A program made the position numbers and the translations under genes. This document shows positions 6,654 to 22,266 of a stretch of 64,000 nt of DNA, piece after piece. The first letter of the stretch is position 1. Every line of letters starts with the position of its first letter. The DNA is from Tessaracoccus coleopterorum (lineage in GTDB: Bacteria > Actinomycetota > Actinomycetes > Propionibacteriales > Propionibacteriaceae). The notes beneath the pieces are model-generated. The model was given only the letters and a program-made list of their open reading frames with translations. It had not been told where the DNA came from and ran no database searches. The stretch covers positions 3,224,001 through 3,288,000 of the forward strand of contig NZ_JAANIJ010000001.1 in NCBI RefSeq assembly GCF_011174705.1, written 5' to 3'.

Positions 6654-8566
6654 TCAGATGTCGAAGCTGTCGTGCGTCGCGACGCAGGCGAACTCGATGA
6701 CATGGTCGGGAAGCACCCAGTAGTGGATGCGGCGGGCCGAAGGCGAGCTCACCTGGAGGCTGGCGCGCCAGGCTACGGCACCGTCGGGCCTGATGCGGAC
6801 GGGAGCGCCGCCGCCCGACCCGGTCCGCAGCTGGTGCACCTCGCGCCCGGCCACCTTGGGAGCGACCCCGGTCACGATCTCGACCACCACGGCGGCCACC
6901 TTCTCGTCCTTGATCCCCTCCAGGGCGGTAAGGCTCGACAGGAACCGCGGGCCGAGCCGGTACTCGACGAGTGGTCGGTCCTTCTGCTCGGCTGCCGGGA
7001 AGCGGGAGGCCCACTGGCTCAGCACCAGGAAGCGGAAACCCTGCTCCGGGTCGGCGAAGCTGGGCGCCGACGGCGCGGTGTTCGGCCGGACCCTGCTGCC
7101 TGCCTTCCGGAGCCGGGCCCGCGACTGCCTGACGTCGAACTCCAGCTTGGCGGCGTCCCGCACCCTGAGATCGAGGAGGACCCGCAGCTGTTCGGTCCCG
7201 CCCTGGGCCGCGGCCAGTTCGGCCTCGAGCGTCGCGTTGACGCTCGTCAGGCGGGAGACCTCGGCGGACAGAGCGTCGATCTTGCGCAGCAGCAACTTCG
7301 TCGACCCCGACGGGGTCGACGGGCCGGCCGGGGGTGGATGGCCGCGGCCGCGGCAGGCGGGCCGGGTTTCGGCGTGGCCGGGTGGCCCGGCTTCGGCGTC
7401 GCGGGTGCGGCGGGGTCCGGCTCCTTGAGCGCCGTCGGGCTCGGCGTCGTCTGCGGCGCAGGCCGTTTGCGGTTGCGGTCGAACATCCCCGGTGTAGGGG
7501 CCGGCGCGCGCGGCGCCCCGCAATCGGCCCGGGCTTCGGGTTCGGCAGCCGGTTGCGGTTCCGCCGGGGCGAGGTCGTCGGGGCGGGCGGCAGCTCCCGG
7601 CCCATCGTCGGCTCCGCATCCCGGTCCTCGACGAGCCAGGCCGGGCCGCCCGGCAGCAGCGGAGGCGCGGTGACGATGGATTCGTCATCGTCGACGTCGA
7701 GCAGCGACAGGGCCCATCCCGGCGCGACGGCGGTCACCCGCGCCGGGATGACCTCGTCGACGGTCATCAGCGTGGTCAGGTCGTCGGCGGGGTTGCTGGT
7801 GACGTCGGCACGGGTGACCCGGACCACGACGGCGGGCGAGGCCGTCCTGGGATAGAGGACGAGGTCGGCGGCCCCGGCGGCCACCATCTGCACCCTCGTG
7901 AGCACCACGTCACCGACGGCGTAGACCATGAGCGCCTCGTCGGCCGGACGCAACGCCCGCGTGACGTCGAGACGGCGGCTCTGCCCGTCGAAGGTGCCTT
8001 CCAGCCGCTGGCCGATGGCCACCAGCCTGCCGATGGGGACGTCGGCGGTGGTCAGTTCCTCGGCGATGGTGGCCAGAGTCCCTGCCCCGAGGTCCACGGC
8101 CGCCCTGCCCGCAGCCACCCACTTGACGGTTCCGGACACCGCCCTGAGCTGGTCTTTCGGAGGCGCGTTGAGCAGACCGGCCGACATCGCCATCCGCAGG
8201 GCGTCGGAGATCATCTCGGTGGTCGCCTCGAGGCCGTCGCGCTCGTTGAAGGCAAAACGGAGGGGGATTCGGACCGGTTCGTGACCCAGCCCAGCCCGAT
8301 CGGGTAGACGCGACCCGCGCCCCGTACACCTGCGTGCCGTCGGCCATGCGCCGCGAGAACTCCCAGGTGATGGCCCCGGTCGGGAGGAGGAACACGTCCG
8401 CGAGGTTTCCCGCCTGGGCGGCGATCTGCCTGGCGTCGATCCACGGGGTGTCCCGTCCGGCGGGGACGGTGACGACCGCCGTCGGCTTGCGTCTCGTGTC
8501 GCCGTTGAGGTGCCGGGCGAGGTGGACGGCCTCGTCAGCGGTGTCTACCAGGTGAACCGTTCCCAT
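6654..8566 (-). CDS. Uncharacterised ~635-aa protein with Pro-rich linker and coiled coil
   Basis: I do not recognise a named family. The start MGTVHLVDTADEAVHLARHL leads into a domain with VTVPAGRDTPWIDARQIA and FLLPTGAITWEFSRRM. A mixed beta-rich region follows to about residue 300 (LATIAEELTTADVPIGRLVAI, ALMVYAVGDVVLTRVQMVA). Next is a low-complexity linker with repeated ATPKPG units, a coiled coil (KIDALSAEVSRLTSVNATLEAELA) and a C-terminal domain of about 200 aa ending near HYWVLPDHVIEFACVATHD. No signal peptide or membrane helix is visible, so it is probably cytoplasmic. Frameshifts occur near 8280, 7560-7600 and 7310. The architecture suggests a scaffold or regulatory protein, but that is only inference. 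Confidence 0.6.
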
Positions 8567-8653
8567 GATGAGAGGTTAGGGGGTGCGCGTGTCGATCGGT
8601 GGGAAGCGTGACAGACCGCCCGGCTCCGGCCGGGCGGTCTGTCGAGGGGACTC

Positions 8654-9648
8654 TCAGAAGATGCGGGTCACGATGTCCGCAGGCGCCTCCAGGAGGCGCT
8701 CGATCTCGTCGTCCAGCTTCACCAGCGTCAGCGATGCGCCTGCCATCTCGAGCGACGTGCAGTAGTTGCCGACGTAGCTGCGCGCCACCGTGATGCCCTG
8801 CTCCGCCAGCTTCGCGGCGGCGATGCCGAACAGGATGTAAAGCTCGCTGATGGGCGTACCTCCCAGGCCGTTGACCATGAGCGCGACACGATCGCCGGAC
8901 GCGTAGGGGAGGTCGGGGACGATCGCGCCGAGGAGCTCGTCGACGATCTCATCCGCCGACACGAGCTCGGCGCGGCGCCGCCCCGGCTCACCGTGGATGC
9001 CGACGCCGACCTCCATCTCGGTGTCACCGAGCTCGAACAGGGGCTGCCCTTCGCCGGCGGGGTGCATGCGGTCAGCGCGATGCCCATCGTGCGGGTCACC
9101 GAGTTCACCCGCTCGCCGATCGCCTTGACCTCCTCGAGGGACGCGCCCTCCTCGGCGAGGGCGCCGCACGCCTTCATCACGAAGAAGTTGCCCGCCACGC
9201 CGCGACGGCCGACCGTGTACAGCGAGTCCTGGACGGCGACGTCGTCGTTGATGAACAGGGTGTCGCAGCGCACGCCGTCGGCCTCGGCCATCTCCTGGGC
9301 CATCTCGAATGCCATCCGGTCACCCGTGTAGTTGTTGACCAGCAGCAGCACGCCCTTGTCGGAGGCGACGCGCTTCGCCGTCTCGTAGACGTACTCGGCG
9401 GGCGGGGCTGCGAACACGTCGCCGGGGCAGGCGGCGTCGAGCATGCCCTTGCCGACCACCATGACGTGGGCCGGCTCGTGGCCGGAGCCGGAGCCCTGGA
9501 CGATGCTCACCTTGTCGTGGTTCGGGGCGTCCGAGCGCATGATGAGGTTGTATTCGGGCACGTAGACGATCGTTTCGGGGTTCGCCAGCGCGATGCCCTT
9601 GAGCATCTCGGGGACGAAGTTCCTGGGATCGTTGATGAACTTCTTCAC
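8654..9648 (-). CDS. dhaK: Dihydroxyacetone kinase-like subunit DhaK
   Basis: The protein begins MKKFINDPRNFVPEMLKG and carries GSGSGHEPAH (substrate pocket), NNYTGDRMAFEMA (Asp that helps deprotonate the substrate) and GVGIHGEPG, whose His forms the hemiaminal bond with dihydroxyacetone. The C-terminus ends ADIVTRIF. The reconstructed length of about 330 aa is normal. One frameshift near 9056 interrupts it. It binds a short ketose covalently for phosphorylation by DhaL. It is the last gene of an operon with dhaL, a HAD phosphatase and a class II aldolase. Homologues acting on erythrulose are known, so the substrate is not certain to be dihydroxyacetone. Confidence 0.9.
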
Positions 9649-9687
9649 GGGTCTCCTTTGACTCTGAGGTGGTGGATGGGCGGGGTG

Positions 9688-10323
9688 TCAGGTGGTGGGC
9701 CAGGTGTCGGCGAGTCGCTCGGCGAGCACGGCCACGGCCATGGCGCCGGCGTCGACCGAGCCGATGCTGCGCTCTCCGGTGTAGGCGGCGCGGCCGCGCA
9801 TGGCCTGCATCGACTGGGTGGCCTCGGCCGCGGTGCGGGCGGTGGTGGCGAATGCGCGGGCGGCGTCCGCCTGCGTGGCGCCGTCGGCCATCGCCGCCTC
9901 GAGCGCGTCGGTGGCCGGCGAGAGCGCGTCGAGGAGCGTCTTGTCCCCGAGATCGGCCTGGCCGCGGGTCTTGATGCCTTCGATGGCGGCCCTCAGCCCC
10001 TGCACGACGTCGTCGCTGCCGAAGGAGTCCGAGCCCTTGAGGGCCATGCCCATCCGGAGGAAGGCCGTGCCCCAGATGGGGCCGGAGGTGCCGCCGATGC
10101 GACTGGAGATGGCCATCGCCACCTTGGTGACGAACACCCCCGGGTCGCTCCGGTCGTAGTCATCCCAGTGTTCGAGGACGATCTCGAAGCCGCGGGCCAG
10201 CGAATAGCCGAAGTCGCCGTCGCCGACGACGGCGTCCAACTCGCCGAAGTACTGCTCGTTCTCGACGATGGTCTCTGCGAGCGTGTGGATGACGCGTTCG
10301 ACGTCGGTGAGGGTGCCGCTCAT
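9688..10323 (-). CDS. dhaL: Dihydroxyacetone kinase-like ADP/ATP-binding subunit DhaL
   Basis: This intact 211-aa protein begins MSGTLTDVERVIHTLAETI. It has the metal-nucleotide motif VVGDGDFGYSLARG, with Asp residues that hold Mg2+ ions, and the late segment RGRAAYTGERSIGSVDAGA typical of the subunit. DhaL carries the nucleotide and passes phosphate to the ketose held by DhaK. Its start overlaps the stop of the HAD gene by four bases. No gene for the PTS-linked phosphotransfer protein DhaM lies nearby, so the phosphate source (free ATP, or DhaM encoded elsewhere) is open. Confidence 0.92.
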   Translation of the reverse strand: MSGTLTDVERVIHTLAETIVENEQYFGELDAVVGDGDFGYSLARGFEIVLEHWDDYDRSDPGVFVTKVAMAISSRIGGTSGPIWGTAFLRMGMALKGSDSFGSDDVVQGLRAAIEGIKTRGQADLGDKTLLDALSPATDALEAAMADGATQADAARAFATTARTAAEATQSMQAMRGRAAYTGERSIGSVDAGAMAVAVLAERLADTWPTT

Positions 10324-13976: not shown

Positions 13977-14975
13977 GTGAACCAGCCGACGCTCGCATCG
14001 CTGGCGGCAGAGCTCAAGGTCTCGCGGCAGACGGTCTCGAACGTGCTCAACTTCCCCGACCGCGTGCGCCCCGAGACGAGGGCCCGCGTGCTGGAGGCGA
14101 TCGAGCGCTCCGGGTACCGCCCGTCGGCCGCGGCCAGGGCCCTGCGCAACCAGCGGGCCATGGCGCTCGGCCTGCGTCTGAGTCAGCGACGCAACGGAAT
14201 CTCGGGCACCATCGTCGACGGTTTCATGCACGCGCTGGTGGGTCTGGCCGACCGGCGGGCTACCGCATCGTGGTGTTCCCGGCGGCGAGCAACGACGAGG
14301 AGGTTGCCAAGCTCGTCGACCTGCGCCGCAGCCTCGCGATCGACGCGTGCATCCTCACCGACACCTGGTTCGGGGACGTCCGCCCGGCCGGGCTCGCCGC
14401 CGAGGGGTGCCGTTCGCGTCCTTCGGCAGGCCGTGGGACGGCCCTGACCACGGCCGTTGGGTCGACGTCGACGGCCGGTCGGGGCCGTCAAGGCGGCCAC
14501 CCACCTGCGCGGCCTCGGGCACGAGCGGGTGGGATTCATCGGATGGGACGACGGGTCGCCCGTCGGGCTCGACCGACGCGACGGCTGGAGCCGGGCGCTC
14601 GGGCTGGACGGCGACGAGGAGCGCAGACTGACCGCCGCGGGCGACGACACCATCCTCGCCGGGGCCGAGGGTATGGCGCGGCTGTTGGAGCAGGGCGCGG
14701 ACGCGGCGGTCTGCGCGAGCGACACCCTCTCGATCGGCGCCTTCACCGAGGTGCGGCGGCGTTCCCGTGATGACGTCGACCTCGTGGGCTTCGACGACAC
14801 CCCCGTGTCCCGCACCCTGGGCCTTGCCAGCATCCGGCAGCCCGTCGAGGCGGTGGCGGCCGCGGTTCTCGACATGGTCCTGGCCCAGCTCGCCGACCCC
14901 GACGTGACGCACTCGGGCCTGCTGATCGAGCCCACCCTCGTGACGCACGAGCGCCCCGACTTCCTCTTGTCCTAG
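13977..14975 (+). CDS. LacI-family transcriptional regulator, frameshifted
   Basis: The GTG at 13977 has a GGAGGG ribosome site and starts exactly at the DNA-binding domain: PTLASLAAELKVSRQTVSNVLNFPDRVRPETRARV, followed by the hinge GYRPSAAARAL. The remaining 260 residues form a periplasmic-binding-like effector domain (GHERVGFIGWDDGSPVGLDRRDGW, VCASDTLSIGAF, DDVDLVGFDDTPVSRT). Frameshifts near 14255, 14405 and 14480 are probably technical. Such regulators repress sugar-use operons and are released by a sugar ligand. The nearest carbohydrate operon is the aldolase/dhaKL set, but a kinase/regulator pair lies between, so the target is uncertain. Confidence 0.88.
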
Positions 14976-15101
14976 TCGCGAGGATCGGAAAACCAATCCG
15001 GTCACATTGCTGTACATGGCCCGGTAGCGTGGCAAGCTGTCGATGAGTCAGAGCGGTCAAACCACGTGCCGACTTTGGCCCCTTCTTGAAGGGAAACTGC
15101 C

Positions 15102-15897
15102 ATGGCACGTGGGCCTGTTTCTTTCCCCATCGTCACGGAGCGCGAAGAGCGCACACACGTCCTCTTCGCCCGACTGGAAGCCTGCACCGATGCCCCTTCC
15201 CGTCATCAGATCGTTTCCGCCATAGCCGAGCTCAATCTTGCGTTGAGTGACGCACTTGCGAGGCGCTACACACGTCGAGGCCCGGACAACGACGACCTGT
15301 TGCAGGTGGCGCGCACGGGTCTGGTTCTCGCGATCCACCGATACCGACCCGGGAAGATACGTCGTTCGTGCGGTTCGCCGTCCCGACAATCACCGGCGAA
15401 ATCAAGCGGTACTTCCGGGACCACTGCTGGACGGTGCGGCCTCCTCGAGCGATCCAGGAGCTGCGGCCCAGGTCGAGGGTGCCCGGGAGGAACTCACCCA
15501 GGAGATGGGGCGGGAACCGCGCGATGTCGACGTGGCCCGCAGGATCGGTACCGACGCGACGTCTGTGCGCAGCTGCACCGAGGCGGTTCGCGGGTTCCGG
15601 GCCGATTCGCTCGACGCGCCGGGTTTCAACGGCGGCCCGTGCCTGGGTGATGTGCTTGCCTCAACCTTCGGCGATCCTGAGAACTGTCTTGATCGGGTGG
15701 TGCTGCGCAGGGCGATGGCGACTCTGACCAGCCGCGAGAGGCGTGTCCTCAGTTGGCGCTTCTGTGATGACCTCACCCAGGCTGAGATCGGAGAACTGCT
15801 GGGCGTCTCCCAGATGCAGGTCTCACGCATCCTCCGCGCCGCGCTCGCGCGGCTGCGGAGCATGCTGATCCCTGACGAAGAGCCGGAAGCCGCATGA
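15102..15897 (+). CDS. SigB/SigF-family general-stress sigma factor, frameshifted
   Basis: Sigma-70 region 2 is seen in RYTRRGPDNDDLLQVARTGLVLAIHRY and FAVPTITGEIKRYFRDHCWTVRPPR, a hallmark of the SigB/SigF/SigG group. Region 3 follows (EGAREELTQEMGREPRDVDVAR) and region 4 (LTSRERRVLSWRFCDDLTQAEIGELLGVSQMQVSRIL). About 265 aa, with frameshifts near 15355 and 15460. The ATG at 15102 has a GAAGGGAAA ribosome site. No anti-sigma (RsbW) or anti-anti-sigma (RsbV) gene is adjacent. The next seven kilobases carry seven SigB/SigF-type promoters, so this is the likely regulator of the whole island. Confidence 0.9.
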
Positions 15898-15904
15898 GGG
15901 CGGC

Positions 15905-15930
15905 GTTTACCCTTCCCGGGACGCGGGTAG
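15905..15930 (+). promoter_or_regulatory. SigB/SigF-type promoter of the DUF892 gene
   Basis: GTTT (15905-15908), a 16-bp spacer and GGGTAG (15925-15930) match the actinobacterial SigF/SigB consensus GTTT-N14-17-GGGTA. It starts just after the sigma gene stop and leaves a leader of about 25 nt before ATG 15963. Confidence 0.75.
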
Positions 15931-15962
15931 GGATCCATACACCCGAAGCAAGGAGCTTGAAA

Positions 15963-16463
15963 ATGCAAGAAAAGAACCTCGACTCGCTGTTCTACGACAC
16001 CCTGCGTGACATGTACTACGCCGAGCGGCACATCCTGAAGACGCTTCCCAAGCTGCAGGAGGCGGCCGTTTCGGACGAGTTGAAGAGCGCGTTCAAGACG
16101 CATCTGGCGGAGACGAATGGTCACGTGGAGCGGCTGGAACAGGTCTTCGCCATGCTCGACCGCAAGCCTGTGAGCAAGCGCTGTCTGGCGATGGACGGCA
16201 TCCTGAAGGAGGGCGACGAGCATCTGGAGGAGTTCAAGGGCACACATGCCAACGACGCAGCTCTGATCGCTTCTGCGCAGGCCGTTGAGCACTACGAGAT
16301 CACCCGGTACGGCACCTTGCGGCGCTGGGCCGGAATGCTCGGTTTCAGTGACGGTGCCGATCTTCTGGATGCGACGTTGGACGAGGAGATCCGTACCGAC
16401 GAACTGCTGTCCAGGATCGCCGACACCGAGGCCAACGCACGGGCCAAGAGCGGCCGCAGGTAG
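15963..16463 (+). CDS. DUF892/YciF-family ferritin-like protein
   Basis: This intact 166-aa protein starts at ATG 15963 with AAGGAG upstream. Its pattern of helices with Glu/His ligands (LRDMYYAERHILKTLPKL, LAETNGHVERLEQVF, AQAVEHYEITRYGTLRRWAG, LDATLDEEIRTDELL) is that of the YciF/DUF892 four-helix ferritin-like family. Members are stress-induced and may bind di-iron centres; the precise reaction is unknown. It has its own SigF-type promoter directly behind the sigma gene, consistent with general-stress expression. Confidence 0.9.
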   Translation: MQEKNLDSLFYDTLRDMYYAERHILKTLPKLQEAAVSDELKSAFKTHLAETNGHVERLEQVFAMLDRKPVSKRCLAMDGILKEGDEHLEEFKGTHANDAALIASAQAVEHYEITRYGTLRRWAGMLGFSDGADLLDATLDEEIRTDELLSRIADTEANARAKSGRR

Positions 16464-16486
16464 GCCCGTGCCTGCTCGGAGAGGAC

Positions 16487-17568
16487 TCAGTCGTCGTCCG
16501 GGTCCTCTCCTGACTCCACCACCATGGCGGCGACCTCACGCAGCCTGACGTTACGTCGCTGGCTGGCTCTGCGTAGGCGCTCGAAGGCGGCCCAGGAAGG
16601 AGTCTGTGTCTCTCGACCAGGATGCCTGTGGCCTGGCCGATCAAGCGGTGGCTCTCCACCGCGGTCTGCAGGTTGCTGATGCGTTCTGAGGCCTCCTGTT
16701 GTGCGCCCAGGCGCACCAGGGCCGCGGCGAAGGCGGATGCCAGGAGGTCTGCGGCCACCATTTCGTCGACTGAGATACGGCGGGGCCGGGGAAACTGGAC
16801 CCAGGCTCTGGCGCTGACTCCCGGAGTACGGGAACAAGCAGGATCCCAGGCCGTAGTGAGACCGAGTCGGGGTTGGGTGAGCCCTCCAACCCCGCCTGAA
16901 CCTCCGGAGGGATCGTGTCACTGGCCCCAGCCGGGCGGCATTGAACCAGTTGGGCCTTCAGCCCCGCCGAGTCGGATGGTGCACTCCCCGTCGAAGAGGA
17001 GCGCGAAGCCGTGCTCGGCAATTCCGATCAGGTCCTCCAGATCGTCCACGACCGCGAAACCGTGACTGACGTCCACGGCTGCCGCGCGTCGACGTTGGGC
17101 CTCGCGCTGCCTCGTGATGTCTCGAACTATGCGTAGGTGGGTCGTGCCGAGCGAGCCGTGGTGGATTGCGGTTCCCGTCGTGTGCACCCAGATCCGGGCC
17201 CGGTCGCGGGTCAGGAAGGGGAAGTCGCGTTCCGGCGCCACACCCTGGCAGATCTCCTCGAAGAAGCACTCGAGGTCGTGGAGCGTGTCGCCGTCCTCCT
17301 CTTCCGTGGGCCACCACGGGTAAGGCGGATGGTACGGGCCTTCCTCCAGCGGGTACCCGAAGAGATCGACGAAGGCCTGGTTCATGTCGAGCACGAGGCC
17401 TGTGGGATCCAGGAGGAGCAGACCGTCGCTGATGGATTCCATCACCGCCCGACGCCACTGTGCGTCGAGCGCGTAGGACTTGATGTCCTGGTCGGGATTG
17501 ATGTCCTGGTCGGGAGAACTGTCGGGGTCTGGGAATGTCGACTCGCTGGTAGCCGAGGTCAGGTCCAT
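16487..17568 (-). CDS. PAS-domain protein with C-terminal ANTAR RNA-binding domain, frameshifted
   Basis: MDLTSATSESTFPDPDSS starts after an AAGGAG site. Residues about 45-160 form a PAS domain (MESISDGLLLLDPTGLVLDMNQAFVDLFGYP, RARIWVHTTGTAIHHGSLGTTHLRIVRDIT). A GAF-like middle follows (DLLASAFAAALVRLG). The C-terminus after frame correction reads AVESHRLIGQATGILVER...AFERLRRASQRRNVRLREVA, a clear ANTAR domain, which binds two-hexaloop RNA and antiterminates transcription. Frameshifts lie near 16590-16630, 16740 and 16930. It stands alone between DUF892 and YihY genes, facing them tail to tail. No SigF-type promoter was found upstream. Confidence 0.85.
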
Positions 17569-17695
17569 GGTGGGGATCTCCTTCCGCGATTCCACGGGGG
17601 TCCCGCGCATCGCACGCCTACACCCAGTATGACCACAAGCCAAGGGCTTCGATGGGCCCGGATGATGCGGCAGTCGACGCTGCAACCTGACGGGG

Positions 17696-18802
17696 TCAGT
17701 CTGCGGCGTGGGTGCGTTCCGCTGCCTCACCACGCAGTCGTCGCCCAGCTTCGACAAGGGCGATCTGGCGTGCGGCCAACTTGTCGGCGGCACCGGTGTC
17801 ACGCGGAGGCAACAGGATCGTCTCCTCGGCGGCGAGACCGCCCTGCAGTTCACGAACGCGTTCGATCTCCGCGTCGATCTCTGCACCGAACAGGAGCACA
17901 TTGTTGATGATCCACAGCCCGAGCAGTAGAACGATCACCGACCCGATCGCTCCGTAGGTGGCGTTGTACGAGGCGAAGTTCGACACGTAGAAGGAGAAGC
18001 CCAGGACGGCCAGCGCCGAGACGACCAGCGCGACCATGGCACCCAGGCTGATCCAGCGGAATCTCGGCTGCTTCACATTGGGGGTGAAATAGTAGAGGAC
18101 GGCCACGGCCAGAATCGCAAGCGCCACCACCACCGGCCACTTGACGATGTTCCACAACAACACGGTGGAATCACCCAGCCCGATGAGGTCGCCGACGCCG
18201 CGGGCCACCGGGCCGGTCAGGACCAGCGCTGCCAGGATCAGGGCCAGGATCACCACCAGCAGGGCCGTCAGAAGCAGCATCTGGGGCTTGTGCTTCCAGA
18301 ACGGACGACCTTCCTCGACCTCGTAGATCCGGTTCATCGCGTGGGAAAACGCCCCGACATAGCCTGACGCAGCCCACAGGGCGCCTGCCAGTCCCGATAC
18401 CAGCACCCAACCCGCCCGGCATGGTTGGCCAGGCCCGTCAGGGTGTCACGCAGGAGCCGGGCGAGATCTGCGGGTGCATACGCCTCCACCCAGTTGTTGA
18501 GAGTCCTCGCTGTCTGTTCACCCTGACCGAACACGCCCAGAAGTGAGACCAGTGCGAGCAACATCGGAAACAGGGACAACACGGCGAAGTACGTGAGCCC
18601 GCCGCAAGGTCGGTGCCCGATCCCTGGAGAACTCGGCAACGGCCCGCCTGATCGCGTACCACCAGGCGGATCCCGGGATGTCTGTCGGGGAGTCCGGCTT
18701 CCTCGGGTCCTCAGGTGGGGGCGCGGACGCCGCCTTCTGCCTGGTCTGCCTCACACTCTCGGGCTCCGAGGCCCGTTCCCGATCTCCTCCTGTGCCCTCC
18801 AC
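17696..18802 (-). CDS. YihY/BrkB-family inner-membrane protein, frameshifted
   Basis: The start is a GTG at 18802 behind a GGAGGAGAGGAG stretch. After a hydrophilic N-terminus come about six membrane helices: GLTYFAVLSLFPMLLALVSLL, ALWAASGYVGAFSHAMN, LLTALLVVILALILAALVL, VALAILAVAVLYYF, ALVVSALAVLGFSFYV and VIVLLLGLWIINNVLLFGAE. YEVEEGRPFWKHKP and WSxxYxxxxxYGAIG-like segments are family hallmarks. About 365 aa; function unknown (earlier mis-called RNase BN). The charged C-terminal tail ends RTHAAD. Frameshifts lie near 18415 and 18615. A SigF-type promoter precedes it. Confidence 0.88.
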
Positions 18803-18846
18803 TGCCGAACTCCTCTCCTCCGTCTGTCGGTCATGTCTTGAGATTT

Positions 18847-18871
18847 GTACCCACCAGGTGCTCCGGCAAAC
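18847..18871 (-). promoter_or_regulatory. SigB/SigF-type promoter of the YihY gene
   Basis: On the minus strand, GTTT (18868-18871), a 15-bp spacer and GGGTAC (18847-18852) lie about 45 bp before the start at 18802. It is back to back with the topoisomerase promoter. Confidence 0.72.
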
Positions 18872-18889
18872 CTGTGCGGCCGTCCGGGA

Positions 18890-18915
18890 GTTTGGCCGCG
18901 GCGCCTAACGGGTAC
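18890..18915 (+). promoter_or_regulatory. SigB/SigF-type promoter of the topoisomerase IB gene
   Basis: GTTT (18890-18893), a 16-bp spacer and GGGTAC (18910-18915) match the SigF consensus. The start codon with a GGAGG site is at 18972. Confidence 0.72.
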
Positions 18916-18971
18916 TCCTTTTGCAGGACCTGCATAAGGGATGGTCAACGGTGATCGTGTGGAGGGTGAGC

Positions 18972-20032
18972 ATGACGAAGACCCGGCACCATGCCTCCGG
19001 TGGACCCCGCTGATGGCGGGTCCACGGGTGAGGCAGGTGATCACGCGCGAGTTGGAGGGCGACGTCGTGATCTACCGGCTGCATGGTCGGCGGATCCGGC
19101 GCAAGGCCGAGCTCGATCGGATCGCCGCACTCGCGGTGCCACCTGCATGGACAGAGGTGGAGATCGCGGTGTCTCCGTCGGCGAAGGTGCTTGCGCGGGT
19201 CAGGACGCCGAGGGACGCACTCAACGGATCTACAACCCGGCCTTCCGACGGAGGCGCGAACGGCGAAAGTTCGAGCGGATGCCCCGGTTCGGTCAGCAGT
19301 TGGCGCAACTCCGCGGTCGGGTCGACCGCGACCTGTCAGGTCGGCGCCTGAACCGCCGGAGGGTGACCGCCTGCGCCGTACAACTCATCGACGCACAGTT
19401 GCTGCGGGTGGGCAATCGGCGCTCCGCTGAGCGGCGCGGAAGTTACGGTGTGACGACGCTCCGCAAGGAGCATGTCACCTTGTCATCCCGGGGGTCAAGC
19501 TCGACTTCATCGGCAAGAGCGGCCGGCGTCAGCGGTGCAGAGTCCAGGACCTCGGATCGCGCGGCTGCTCGCTCGCCTTGTGGAGGGCCAGACGATGGAC
19601 TCTTCTGGTTCAGGGACGATGACGGGGGCGACACCGGCTCCGGAGCACTGACATCAACCGCTACCTCGCCCGCCATCTTGGCCCGGAGTTCACCGCAAAG
19701 GACTTTCGGACCTGGGGTGGGACGGTCACCGTGACCGCGGTACTTCTGATGGCTCCTGAGGAGGACATGGACTCCCCAAGGCCAGGGCGACCACCATGCG
19801 CGCGGCCGTGCGTGCCGCGGCCGCGCGTCTCGGCAACACACCCGCAGTCACCCGCACGTCCTACGTCGACCCCAGGGTCCTCGCCTCCATCGACCATCCC
19901 GCTGTGCTGGATGAGGTCCGGAAGGCAAGGGCACGGATGCGACCCAGACGCTATCTGGGAGTCGATGAGCAGGCGACGCTCGCGTTGCTCGAGGCCATGG
20001 ACGGCCGACGTACCCGAAAGCGCCGGACATGA
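18972..20032 (+). CDS. DNA topoisomerase IB (poxvirus-like), heavily frameshifted
   Basis: The segments RRKAELDRIAALAVPPAWTEV, RTQRIYNPAFRRRRERRKFERM, VTACAVQLIDAQLLRVGN, GSYGVTTLRKEHVT, NRYLARHLGPEFTAKDFRTWGGTV and the C-terminal AAARLGNTPAVTRTSYVDPRVL follow the order of bacterial type IB topoisomerases, which relax DNA through a 3'-phosphotyrosyl intermediate. The C-terminal TSYVDP tyrosine is the candidate nucleophile. Five or more frameshifts (19000-19790) spread these pieces over three frames. The density is higher than in neighbouring genes, so real decay cannot be excluded. The start at 18972 is chosen for its GGAGG site; a SigF-type promoter lies upstream. Confidence 0.8.
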
Positions 20033-20066
20033 ATGGCCGGTCGCCGCGTGGGCGACGACCGGCCAT
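20033..20066. terminator. Shared hairpin between convergent topoisomerase and CsbD genes
   Basis: ATGGCCGGTCG (20033-20043) pairs perfectly with CGACCGGCCAT (20056-20066). It begins at the topoisomerase stop and lies 17 bp beyond the CsbD stop, so it can serve both strands. Confidence 0.6.
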
Positions 20067-20083
20067 CGGGGAGGGGGAGCGGA

Positions 20084-20302
20084 TCAGCGCTGCACGGGGC
20101 CGTCCGTGCCTCGACCGAGGGTTTCGTTCAGCTCGGCCTGCTGCTCCTGCCGGGCACCTTCAGCCTCAAGGCGCTCATCATCCGTGAGGTCACCCCACTT
20201 CTTCTTCGCCTTGCCTGCGACCTTGTCTGCGGCGTCGCGGACCTTGTCACCCAGGTCGCGGTCGTCGTGGCGGAGGTCGTCGTCACGAGGGTCTGTTGTC
20301 AT
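20084..20302 (-). CDS. CsbD-like stress protein
   Basis: This intact 72-aa, highly charged protein (MTTDPRDDDLRHDDRDLGDKV) contains DKVRDAADKVAGKAKKKWGDLTDDERLEAEGA. That matches the CsbD pattern of a GK-K--G-LT-D--L-AEG core. CsbD is a SigB-dependent general-stress protein in Bacillus; its biochemical role is unknown. AAGGAG precedes the ATG at 20302 and a SigF-type promoter lies 35 nt further up. Confidence 0.88.
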   Translation of the reverse strand: MTTDPRDDDLRHDDRDLGDKVRDAADKVAGKAKKKWGDLTDDERLEAEGARQEQQAELNETLGRGTDGPVQR

Positions 20303-20343
20303 GGTCGCTCCTTATGCTGTCGGCGGGTTCCGATATCGGTTCG

Positions 20344-20368
20344 GTACCCGGTCTCGTCCGGTCCAAAC
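20344..20368 (-). promoter_or_regulatory. SigB/SigF-type promoter of the CsbD gene
   Basis: On the minus strand, GTTT (20365-20368), 15 bp and GGGTAC (20344-20349). Confidence 0.75.
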
Positions 20369-20419
20369 GTGGCATCGTCAGCCGACGCATGGCTCACCGA
20401 ATGTCTGGACACGGAGCCG

Positions 20420-21343
20420 CTAGAAGACGGGTCGCCCACCGGTGACGCCGATGACCGCTCCCGAGACGTACGAAGCCTCAAGTGGTGAAGCCAGGAACAC
20501 GAATGCACCAGCGAGTTCGGCGGGTTGTCCCGGTCGTCCGAGTGGCGTGTTCTCGCCGAAGGAAGGCATCTCCCCGCCGTCGCGGGTCGCGGGTTGCAGA
20601 GGGGTCCAGATGGGTCCGGGCGCCACAGCGTTGACCCGGATCCCTCGTGGACCGAGCTCCCCCGCAAGATTCGCGGTGAAGTTGTTGATCGCGGCCTTGG
20701 TGGATGCGTAGTCGATCAGCACCGCCGACGGATCCTCGGCCTGGATGGAGCTGACATTGATGATGCTGGCGCCGCTGTGCATATGTTTCAGCGCCTGTTG
20801 GGTGATCCAGATCAGCGCATACAGATTGGTCTTGAACACCCTGTCCATCTGCTCGGTGGTGACATCCTCCAGACCGTGCTCACGACGCCCCACTGGAAAC
20901 CGGCGTTGTTGACCAGCACATCGAGACCCCCAACCGGCTGGCTGCATCGTCGACCAGCTTCCGGCAGGTCGCCTCGTTGCGGATGTCCCCCGGCAGAAGG
21001 ACGCACAGCGAACCTTCCTTCTCCACCCACCGGGCGACCTCCTCGGCGTCGGCCTGTTCCTCGGGGAGGTAGCCGATCGCCACATCGGCGCCCTCGCGGG
21101 CGAAAGCGATCGCGACCGCGCGCCCGATACCGGAGTCGCCGCCCGTGATCAGGGCCCCCAGGCCGGCCAGGCGCCCTCGGCCCACCCAGGTCTCCTCGCC
21201 GTGGTCCGGCACGGGGTCATCTCCCTGGTCAGTCCCGGTGCCTGCTGCTCCTGGGGTGGGATTCCGCCGTCGCGGGTTGCGAGGTCCTCGGCAACTTCGG
21301 TGACGTTTGCATCTTCAGTGGTCTGTCCATTCATCTCACTCAT
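20420..21343 (-). CDS. Short-chain dehydrogenase/reductase of the stress-linked YghA/YhdF type, frameshifted
   Basis: The N-terminal extension MSEMNGQTTEDANVTEVAED with GGIPPQEQQAPGLTREM is typical of the roughly 290-300-aa stress SDRs. LITGGDSGIGRAVAIAFAREGADVAI is the nucleotide-binding TGxxxGIG motif, LVNNAG the NNAG motif, and YASTKAAINNFT carries the catalytic Tyr and Lys. Frameshifts near 21190-21210, 20940 and 20870 split it. It probably reduces or oxidises a small carbonyl/alcohol with NAD(P)(H); the substrate is unknown. Its SigF-type promoter is so close to the ATG (-10 ends 9 bp upstream) that the transcript is expected to be leaderless. Confidence 0.9.
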
Positions 21344-21352
21344 GCCATTGCC

Positions 21353-21378
21353 CTACCCGGATGGCGGACCGTCCACAC
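21353..21378 (-). promoter_or_regulatory. SigB/SigF-type promoter of the SDR gene (one mismatch)
   Basis: On the minus strand, GTGT (21375-21378), 16 bp and GGGTAG (21353-21358). The -35 has one mismatch to GTTT. The expected transcription start falls at or just before the ATG at 21343. Confidence 0.6.
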
Positions 21379-21445
21379 GTCAGGGGTTCGCCTGACAGCA
21401 TCGAGGGCGGCGGATGAGATATCCACCGCCCTCGTGCCGGTTGTG

Positions 21446-21598
21446 TCAGGATCCGATGTAGCTCGCGGGATCCTGCAGGAACTTCTCGCGGCAGCCGTCC
21501 GAGCAGAAGTTGTACTGCTTTCCCCGGTAGTTCTCGGACGGGGAGCTCTGCGGGTCGACGTCCATGTGGCAGACGGGACACTGGGTGGCGTCTTGCAT
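21446..21598 (-). CDS. Small YHS-domain (metal-binding) protein
   Basis: This intact 50-aa protein, MQDATQCPVCHMDVDP, has the YHS pattern: CPVC near the start and later YNFCSDGCREKFLQDP. The four cysteines likely bind a metal; YHS modules occur in copper-handling and other metal proteins. The ATG at 21598 follows a purine-rich site (GGAGAAGGAGAAGG). A SigF-type promoter lies upstream. Confidence 0.85.
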   Translation of the reverse strand: MQDATQCPVCHMDVDPQSSPSENYRGKQYNFCSDGCREKFLQDPASYIGS

Positions 21599-21639
21599 GT
21601 CCTTCTCCTTCTCCTGGTGGTTGATCGGACATGTTCGCT

Positions 21640-21663
21640 GTACCCGCGGGACGTGGCACAAAC
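21640..21663 (-). promoter_or_regulatory. SigB/SigF-type promoter of the YHS gene
   Basis: On the minus strand, GTTT (21660-21663), 14 bp and GGGTAC (21640-21645), about 42 bp before the ATG. Confidence 0.72.
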
Positions 21664-21694
21664 CTGCAAACCGATATGCGGCGCAGTCGAGGGA

Positions 21695-22141
21695 TCAGGC
21701 TTCCGACGCGGCGGGAGCGGAAGGCCCGTCAGGATCGCCCTCGCTGAGCTGTCGTGCCGAGCCGAGGCCGGAGGCCTCACGCGCCTCCCGGGCAAGGCGT
21801 TCGTACGGCTCACGGATCCGGGTGATGTCCTCCTCATCGAGTTCCTCGAGATCCAGCAGAGCCTTGTGTGCATTTGCCGTCACCCTGATCAGCTCGTCGA
21901 GCTTTGTCTGCAGCGCCGCCGTGTCCCGGTTCTGCGTGTTCTGGATCAGGAACACCATGAGAAAGGTCACGATCGTGGTCGACGTGTTGATCACCAACTG
22001 CCACGTGTCACTGAAGCCGAAGATCGGCCCGAGCGCCGCCCACAGGACCACCAATGCGACTGCCGCGACGAACGTCGTCGCCTTCCCCGCGAACCTCGAG
22101 AGACCATTGGCCACCCTCAGAAACCAACTCCGGTTCTTCAT
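21695..22141 (-). CDS. Low-affinity iron permease-family membrane protein
   Basis: This 148-aa protein starts MKNRSWFLRVANGLSRFAGK and has two membrane helices (FVAAVALVVLWAALGPIFGF and INTSTTIVTFLMVFLIQN). Then comes NTQNRDTAALQTKLDELIRV, the signature of the PF04120 low-affinity iron permease family, and a charged tail. Transport itself has not been shown for most bacterial members. Intact. GAGAGGAAA precedes the ATG at 22141. A SigF-type promoter lies about 100 bp upstream. Confidence 0.85.
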   Translation of the reverse strand: MKNRSWFLRVANGLSRFAGKATTFVAAVALVVLWAALGPIFGFSDTWQLVINTSTTIVTFLMVFLIQNTQNRDTAALQTKLDELIRVTANAHKALLDLEELDEEDITRIREPYERLAREAREASGLGSARQLSEGDPDGPSAPAASEA

Positions 22142-22241
22142 GTCCGTTTCCTCTCCCGGTCTGCCGTCCAGCCTCCGGCCGGAGACGCGATGCCTGGCTG
22201 CCACCGTGATCCACCGGCCATCGCAGATGAGCGCAATCCCT

Positions 22242-22266
22242 TTACCCCCTGAAGAGACGCCCAAAC
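22242..22266 (-). promoter_or_regulatory. SigB/SigF-type promoter of the iron-permease-like gene
   Basis: On the minus strand, GTTT (22263-22266), 15 bp and GGGTAA (22242-22247). The stretch from here to 22512 contains no gene that I can see on either strand. Confidence 0.68.

Follow-up and report, generated by a model that had tools for sequence, protein, structure and literature searches.

A compact SigB/SigF-type stress module in Tessaracoccus coleopterorum with a conserved, putatively bistable leader on the sigma mRNA

A 64,000-nucleotide stretch of the Tessaracoccus coleopterorum genome (positions 3,224,001 to 3,288,000 of contig NZ_JAANIJ010000001.1; hereafter the window, with positions counted from its first letter) contains a 7.2-kb island that starts with a gene for a SigB/SigF-type sigma factor. 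We propose that the island is a compact general-stress module, whose sigma factor would read both the neighbouring genes and another gene cluster, located at 1.291 Mb. The sigma gene itself would be transcribed by the housekeeping sigma factor, and control would fall on the sigma mRNA. In the default fold of its leader, the start codon would be hidden in a hairpin; a small stem-loop at the 5' end, GGU(Y)C-[A(A)ACCAC]-G(U)GCC, would draw on the same nucleotides and exclude that hairpin. Once its sensor is triggered, a sensor-ANTAR protein, here a PAS-ANTAR protein, would most likely bind the leader and tip the balance towards translation of the sigma factor, the order being sensor-ANTAR, sigma translation, regulon. 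We consider this explanation as a whole, with its SigB/SigF module, translational leader switch and sensor-ANTAR protein, moderately probable. At the level of sequence, the promoter sites, the conservation and position of the leader, its two exclusive pairings and its co-occurrence with ANTAR genes are established; we infer transcription by the local sigma factor, translational control, and the binding of an ANTAR protein together with the direction of its effect. A regulon such as this one is in itself expected, and the leader with its ANTAR protein would be the new part.

Promoters and genes of the island

The promoter motif was counted as exact GTTT-N14-16-GGGTA, with the reversed pattern as control, in the 3.59-Mb genome (two contigs). 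The genome contains 16 exact sites and seven reversed ones. Six of the 16 are inside the island (first bases 15905+, 18871-, 18890+, 20368-, 21663- and 22266-), where 0.02 sites are expected from the background of the 10 outside sites (Poisson P ~9e-14 for six). The other 57 kb of the window has zero exact sites, in agreement with a preliminary description of this DNA, which had seen no such pair in the other intergenic regions that it inspected. Among the 10 outside sites, two share one sequence, which we take to be the 16S 806R region, two at 1.291 Mb precede a CsbD gene and a neighbouring gene, and six lie each within a stop-free frame of more than 150 codons.

The preliminary description had listed seven promoters, the one of the SDR gene with GTGT instead of GTTT, and this variant is indeed present at 21378-. 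Thirty-two sites in other genomes, all strict-pattern matches preceding an open frame with a ribosome-binding-like site, served to build a matrix, so that its independent information lies in the flanking bases only. In a scan of both strands of the whole window, the seven sites took ranks 1-7, with scores from 23.3 for the CsbD site down to 14.8 for the SDR site, and the next place scored 13.0. Simulated windows (n=20) had on average 0.65 sites scoring at least 14.8; taken alone, therefore, the SDR site could have arisen by chance. It is the weakest of the seven, and its case rests on the neighbouring sites. A chance origin of the motif cluster as such is ruled out by the genome count, the matrix ranking and the Poisson probability.

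The features of the island, with strand and basis, are the following.

15102..15897, plus strand: SigB/SigF-type sigma gene in three frames (tblastn pieces, Pfam, NCBIfam TIGR02980)
15905..15929, plus strand: DUF892 promoter, SigB-type (exact motif and matrix)
15963..16463, plus strand: DUF892 gene (PF05974, 4e-55)
16487..17571, minus strand: PAS-ANTAR gene, frameshifted (PAS and ANTAR profile matches, homologues)
17696..18802, minus strand: YihY/BrkB membrane protein gene in two frames (PF03631)
18848..18871, minus strand: YihY promoter, SigB-type (exact motif and matrix)
18890..18914, plus strand: topoisomerase IB promoter, SigB-type (exact motif and matrix)
18941..20032, plus strand: topoisomerase IB gene in several frames, 3' end by eye (PF21338, PF01028)
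20084..20302, minus strand: CsbD-like gene (PF05532)
20345..20368, minus strand: CsbD promoter, SigB-type (exact motif and matrix)
20420..21343, minus strand: SDR oxidoreductase gene in more than one frame (PF13561/PF00106)
21354..21378, minus strand: SDR promoter, SigB-like, GTGT-N16-GGGTAG (matrix)
21446..21601, minus strand: YHS-domain gene (PF04945)
21641..21663, minus strand: YHS promoter, SigB-type (exact motif and matrix)
21695..22141, minus strand: low-affinity iron permease-like gene (PF04120)
22243..22266, minus strand: promoter of the iron permease-like gene, SigB-type (exact motif and matrix)

As expected of a SigB-type regulon, the motif precedes the target genes beyond chance. 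It fits the SigB-class consensus in the excerpted text of PMC8346170, which gives GTTTAA-N12-14-GGGWAW for Bacillus subtilis and several sites of Streptomyces coelicolor. From these sequences, the SigB/SigF-type sigma factor is predicted to transcribe six or more of the neighbouring stress genes, probably all seven. We are nearly certain of the promoters and the regulon as described.

Pfam agrees with the gene identities of the preliminary description; its reading frames proved less intact, the sigma, YihY, topoisomerase IB, SDR and PAS-ANTAR genes being frameshifted. Two frameshifts, which were left unmended, divide the sigma gene into tblastn pieces at about 15102-15356, 15347-15472 and 15469-15894. 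Sigma-70 regions 2 (PF04542, part), 3 (PF04539) and 4 (PF04545) were found in these pieces. Against the cut-off of 234.35 for TIGR02980 (SigB/SigF/SigG), the pieces score 33.1 and 107.4, the frame being broken. Among the relatives, L047, which has an intact homologue, and L048 score above the cut-off (236.5 and 234.5), and L054, L056 and L279 score below it (230.1, 218.1 and 203.4). The assembly has two contigs and a completeness of 60.9%, and several island genes are split, so that sequencing errors are the likely cause of the frameshifts, including those of the sigma gene. Between 12045 and 22444 of the window, a LacI-type regulator is split by frameshift along with the sigma, PAS-ANTAR, YihY, topoisomerase IB and SDR genes, which fits an indel-rich assembly.

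The sigma gene was found in eight of 39 Tessaracoccus genomes (best E <1e-16; 3e-7 or weaker in the remaining genomes), and hence it is an accessory module of the genus. The motif and the reversed control were counted 126 vs 81 times in the eight sigma-bearing genomes and 337 vs 428 times in the 31 genomes without the sigma gene (Fisher P 2e-5 between groups). The genome-wide excess is modest overall: G030 has 22 vs 5 sites, and G011 (13 vs 15) and G019 (12 vs 11) have the sigma gene with about no motif excess. In relatives, intact sigma homologues adjoin the same motif. By eye, the motif precedes YHS genes near the sigma gene in L047, L048, L049 and L054, and CsbD-like genes in L051-L054, L134-L136, L138-L142, L171 and L179; clusters of sites in G010 (L164) and G021 (L165) precede CsbD-like, Dps-like and DUF892-like genes. 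Some motif sites in relatives precede small genes without a name or no frame. The consensus fit, the recurrence of the same families in relatives and the genus-wide enrichment make a SigB/SigF-type sigma factor with a co-located regulon, as first described, the best reading.

Two clusters apart from a sigma gene were observed. In the own genome, a second SigB-type promoter cluster with CsbD and a neighbouring gene set lies at C1 ~1,285,000-1,298,000 (L037 4000-7000), and no sigma homologue was found in 13 kb around 1.291 Mb. L164 (G010 C85) has four motif sites in 1.7 kb (8100-9800), on a different contig from the sigma gene, and two of them precede the CsbD-like and Dps-like genes.

The leader of the sigma mRNA

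The region between the promoter of the sigma gene and its first codons contains the following elements, all on the plus strand.

15033..15038: candidate -10 element CAAGCT of a housekeeping-type promoter of the sigma gene (by eye)
15053..15074: conserved 5' domain of the sigma leader, GCGGTCAAACCACGTGCCGACT (alignment of leaders)
15054-15058 with 15066-15071: stem-loop H1, loop AAACCAC at 15059-15065 (predicted pairing)
15062..15112: alternative start-codon hairpin (minimum free energy folds, accessibility, spacer and synonymous-codon controls)
15062-15070 (CCACGTGCC) with 15104-15112 (GGCACGTGG, codons 1-4): helix P1 of the start-codon hairpin
15080-15084 with 15089-15093: helix P2 inside P1, on the Shine-Dalgarno side

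No exact GTTT/GGGTA pair was found upstream of the sigma gene. A -35 element matching the -10 element is visible by eye in some relatives (for example L141, TTGATC-N17-CAGGGT) and not clearly in the window. Because a housekeeping-like promoter lies just upstream of the conserved element in several loci (by eye), the transcript would carry the element close to its 5' end.

The leader (15053-15112) is strongly conserved across 32 aligned leaders from 31 loci, 28 from Propionibacteriaceae and four from Intrasporangium (family Intrasporangiaceae). Upstream of 12 sigma genes, those of the window and of 11 relatives, GCGGTCAAACCACGTGCCGACT or a near variant is present in all but L054; it lies 40-60 nt upstream of the start codon, and the start itself is mostly ATGGCACGTGG. 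The 20-nt leader element is near identical among loci whose sigma proteins share 40-56% identity with that of L047. TCAAACCACGTGCCGACT has 14 exact matches in 391 genomes of the order, and 13 of them are directly upstream of such a sigma gene. The 14th, at L143 6200-6960 (G048), is followed by the first 22 sigma codons only and then no sigma match, a misassembly or a remnant.

An 18-mer search of the same 391 genomes with up to two mismatches yielded 51 matches in 48 genomes. The family of the window contains 33 of them: 23 precede a sigma gene, one is the remnant in L143, and nine, all with two mismatches, have no sigma gene. In two other families, none of the 17 matches examined out of 18 has a sigma gene within 1.5 kb. 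Among the sigma loci of named genomes (the best 80 of 584 sigma-like stretches), 15 have the element with at most four mismatches in the 20-mer, including the four of Intrasporangium, one has five mismatches, and 64 have seven or more. The own genome has one other match to the 13-base core of the element at one mismatch and one weak model match of 19.9 bits.

With stricter filters, the sequence model R1 gave a single strong match in 394 genomes of the class, that of the own genome (33.8 bits); the next matches, at 20-21 bits, are at about the chance level for 394 genomes. Among 29 weak loci examined, L253 and L257, from one genus, have a SigB-like sigma gene and an ANTAR gene within 1.5 kb, and in L253 the element sits in the leader of a GAF-ANTAR gene. 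These sequences are suggestive of a spread of the leader element to that genus. In 79 sources that included nine leader loci, R1 found those nine leaders and L211 at 12.7 bits. A search of Rfam with 14800-15400 gave nothing over the gathering score; the best of three matches with E up to 10 had 17.4 bits against the required 90.

Folds were computed at 37 C. Seven leaders folded alone form the same long hairpin, in which CCACGUGCC or a variant pairs with GGCACGUGG. The G of AUG and codons 2-4 are thereby paired, and the long hairpin encloses an inner one on the Shine-Dalgarno side. The same 5' segment alternatively forms H1, GG(U)(Y)C-[A(A)ACCAC]-G(U)GCC; the two structures share nucleotides and are mutually exclusive. 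As a control, 156 other open frames with ribosome-binding-like sites were taken from the same loci; relative to them, accessibility is reduced at positions -20..+10 (P 6e-7) and at the AUG (P 0.0015). A shuffled spacer gives a weaker fold in 30 of 32 leaders (Wilcoxon P 5e-8), as does synonymous resampling of codons 2-5 in 25 of 32 (Wilcoxon P 4e-5). Codons 2-3 are GCA CGT in 18 of 32 leaders; in the same genes, 11% of Ala codons are GCA and 13.5% of Arg codons are CGT. The paired cells of P1 were reached by 3/500 shuffles and its score by 14/500. Sequence changes in H1 fit the pairing: L190 has a U-A pair for a mismatch, L185 and L187 have an extra G-C pair, and L279 has C-G for U-G. On these predicted folds, a bistable leader that alternates between the start-codon hairpin and H1 is likely, and it quite probably acts on translation.

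ANTAR proteins and alternative explanations

The preliminary description had named the PAS-ANTAR protein as a candidate controller of the sigma factor and had missed the conserved leader; co-occurrence supports the candidate. The ANTAR domain of the island gene, its frame being cut, scores 26.3 bits, just below the cut-off of 27.3. A PAS-ANTAR gene lies near the sigma gene in 16 units (window, L047, L048 twice, L049, L050, L054, L133, L138, L139, L141, L142, L144, L149, L170 and L179) and is convergent with it in 10. Homologues at E 1e-20, which in some genomes terminate a longer kinase fusion, are present in 19 of 24 leader-bearing genomes and in none of 24 leaderless Tessaracoccus genomes (sampled from 31; Fisher P 7e-9, ignoring ancestry). 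G046 has the PAS-ANTAR and sigma genes and no leader. Among fetched loci, an ANTAR domain was found in 17 of 31 leader loci vs 14 of 69 leaderless sigma loci (P 0.0009); several of the leader loci cover little sequence. Sensors differ between loci, the ANTAR domain being constant: L052, from a genome without a close PAS-ANTAR homologue, has a histidine kinase-receiver, L138 and L144 have kinase-receiver-PAS, and L056 and L193 have GAF. At eight loci where PAS-ANTAR is apart from the leader-bearing sigma gene (L282-L289), regulon-type genes with motif sites were found in three, namely YihY, DUF892 and CsbD in L283 and YHS in L285 and L286; L282 and L287 have a motif site without a regulon gene, and the three other loci have neither.

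The excerpts of PMC8934654 and PMC8164766 describe the consensus ANTAR target as a dual stem-loop whose loops are hexanucleotides with A1 and G4. As required of such a target, an ANTAR protein is encoded in the same genome. The predicted P2 loops are mostly of 4-5 nt and not hexaloops. From the sequences, the ANTAR protein may act on the leader, with a chance that we put a little short of even.

Several results weigh against our proposal. The canonical hexaloop of those excerpts was not found in the leader: the H1 loop, A(A)ACCAC, has 6-7 nt with A1 present and G4 absent, which places the leader outside the ANTAR-target class as defined. Five of the 24 leader genomes have no close PAS-ANTAR homologue (two of them are 71% and 88% complete), 14 of the 31 leader loci have no ANTAR gene nearby, five of the eight loci L282-L289 have no regulon gene, and the co-occurrence is confounded by shared ancestry. 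Compared with the 156 control frames, the Shine-Dalgarno stretch alone does not differ in accessibility (P 0.18), and the minimum free energy is not lower (P 0.46). RNAalifold gives four H1 pairs only, at -1.66 kcal/mol with a covariation term of -0.11. In P1 one pair has a double-sided change, which 277/500 shuffles match, and at least two of its nine pairs are broken in L050, L051, L053, L056, L145 and the four Intrasporangium leaders. The H1 score was reached by 45/500 shuffles, and in four of five sequences isolated H1 folds with no greater stability than its shuffled versions.

The weak covariation of the leader would also suit a different role for the conserved 20-mer, namely a DNA operator just downstream of the sigma transcription start, the complement of the start codon being incidental or a second half-site. 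The near-invariant sequence, its CACGTG palindrome and the fairly constant distance of 10-14 nt to the -10 region (by eye, seven leaders) are in line with this. We consider an operator rather unlikely: the one-base length changes sit where H1 tolerates them (GGTC/GGTTC/GGTCC), the mismatch in L190 becomes a U-A pair, the rare codons 2-3 fit the P1 pairing, and the distance between the two halves varies. Very improbable is a leader that is a stand-alone RNA thermometer or a folding-rate device with no protein partner. The computed probability that the AUG is unpaired is indeed below 0.5 in 24 of 28 Propionibacteriaceae leaders, but the predicted ~-17 to -35 kcal/mol is high for a simple thermometer, thermometers show little sequence conservation according to the excerpt of PMC11182007 while this leader is strongly conserved, and the co-occurrence with ANTAR genes speaks for a protein partner.

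Control might instead be post-translational, the regulon being as described, the leader minor or unrelated and an anti-sigma factor encoded elsewhere, as partner switching controls SigF of M. smegmatis in the excerpt of PMC7693655. The preliminary claim that RsbV and RsbW partners are lacking stands for the neighbourhood: between 12 and 26 kb of the window, PF13581 (HATPase_c_2) and PF01740 (STAS) have no match, hence no RsbW/RsbV lies beside the sigma gene. The genome as a whole has 10 HATPase_c_2 matches (three over the cut-off) and three STAS matches, none resembling a stand-alone RsbW or RsbV. Seven of the 10 are in frames of at least 343 aa, and the other three (163, 133 and 106 aa) are sensor-kinase pieces by eye; of the STAS matches, two are in frames of 547 and 574 aa, and the third, in a 135-aa frame, looks by eye like the end of a protein of the sulfate-transporter type. 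These searches would have missed an anti-sigma factor from a different family, yet this explanation, which we consider unlikely, leaves the conservation of the leader unexplained. It is hardly probable at all that the promoters are read by another alternative sigma factor and that the local sigma gene is a pseudogene. The sigma gene does lie in three frames, and the genome has 24 sigma region-4 matches, including one in a 195-aa frame at 603563; on the other side, frameshifts are common in this 60.9% complete assembly, motif enrichment tracks the presence of the sigma gene across the genus, and its intact homologues adjoin the same motif. Separately, an RsbW candidate at 2757 of the window turned out to be a kinase-like fragment.

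Relation to known systems and further loci

The module has the sigma family, the promoter consensus and targets such as CsbD in common with B. subtilis SigB, mycobacterial SigF and the Streptomyces SigB paralogues. It differs from SigB/SigF regulons in having several targets beside the sigma gene, no RsbV/RsbW neighbours, a conserved sigma leader and an ANTAR neighbour. Start regions of stress sigma mRNAs are buried in structure in rpoH-type control, too. That arrangement resembles the one proposed here; the present leader differs from it in its sequence, its sigma family and the proposed protein partner.

As in the actinobacterial ANTAR-target RNAs in the excerpt of PMC8164766, the element is near the ribosome-binding site and start codon, and an ANTAR protein is encoded in the genome. 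About 37% of the actinobacterial targets in that excerpt, including Propionimicrobium examples, overlap the ribosome-binding site or AUG. Unlike those targets, the loop here has 6-7 nt without G4 and the second stem-loop is not such a hexaloop. A word search of the main text of that paper did not find the word 'sigma'. Like EutV-type ANTAR antitermination in the excerpt of PMC8934654, the proposed switch has two exclusive RNA folds, one of which would be stabilised by an ANTAR dimer; unlike it, the excluded fold would hide a start codon and not a terminator.

We tentatively suggest a new family of cis-regulatory RNAs on SigB/SigF-type sigma mRNAs of Propionibacteriaceae and Intrasporangium: the leader would be bistable, and ANTAR proteins whose sensors are interchangeable (PAS, GAF, kinase-receiver) would stabilise the 5' stem-loop, free the start codon and take the place of partner switching in controlling the general stress response. 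Judged by titles and the beginnings of abstracts among the papers listed from the open-licence literature, which is no proof of absence, no description of such a leader was found. The proposal bears on how SigB-family sigma factors without a visible RsbW/RsbV pair are switched on; if it is true, swappable sensor modules on an RNA-binding output would gate a whole stress regulon at translation. The leader element could be used as a marker for such regulons in related bacteria.

Some individual loci deserve mention. L048 7740-13822 (T. bendigoensis, strain DSM 12906) contains two tandem units of sigma and PAS-ANTAR genes, each with a leader, ~4 kb apart; T. caeni has a single copy. L180 and L222, from records titled Bifidobacterium breve (metagenome-assembled), a name that is probably wrong, contain SigB-like sigma genes with 49% and 47% identity to that of L047. 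In another family, L279 9787 (G438) has an element resembling the 5' domain of the leader in the leader of a GAF-ANTAR gene near a SigB-like sigma gene. If the elements of L253 and L279 are related to the sigma leader, the module may be moving between sigma and ANTAR genes. A similar element at L280 9187 (G677) is before a glycosyltransferase-like gene, near SigB-like sigma and GAF-ANTAR-type genes.

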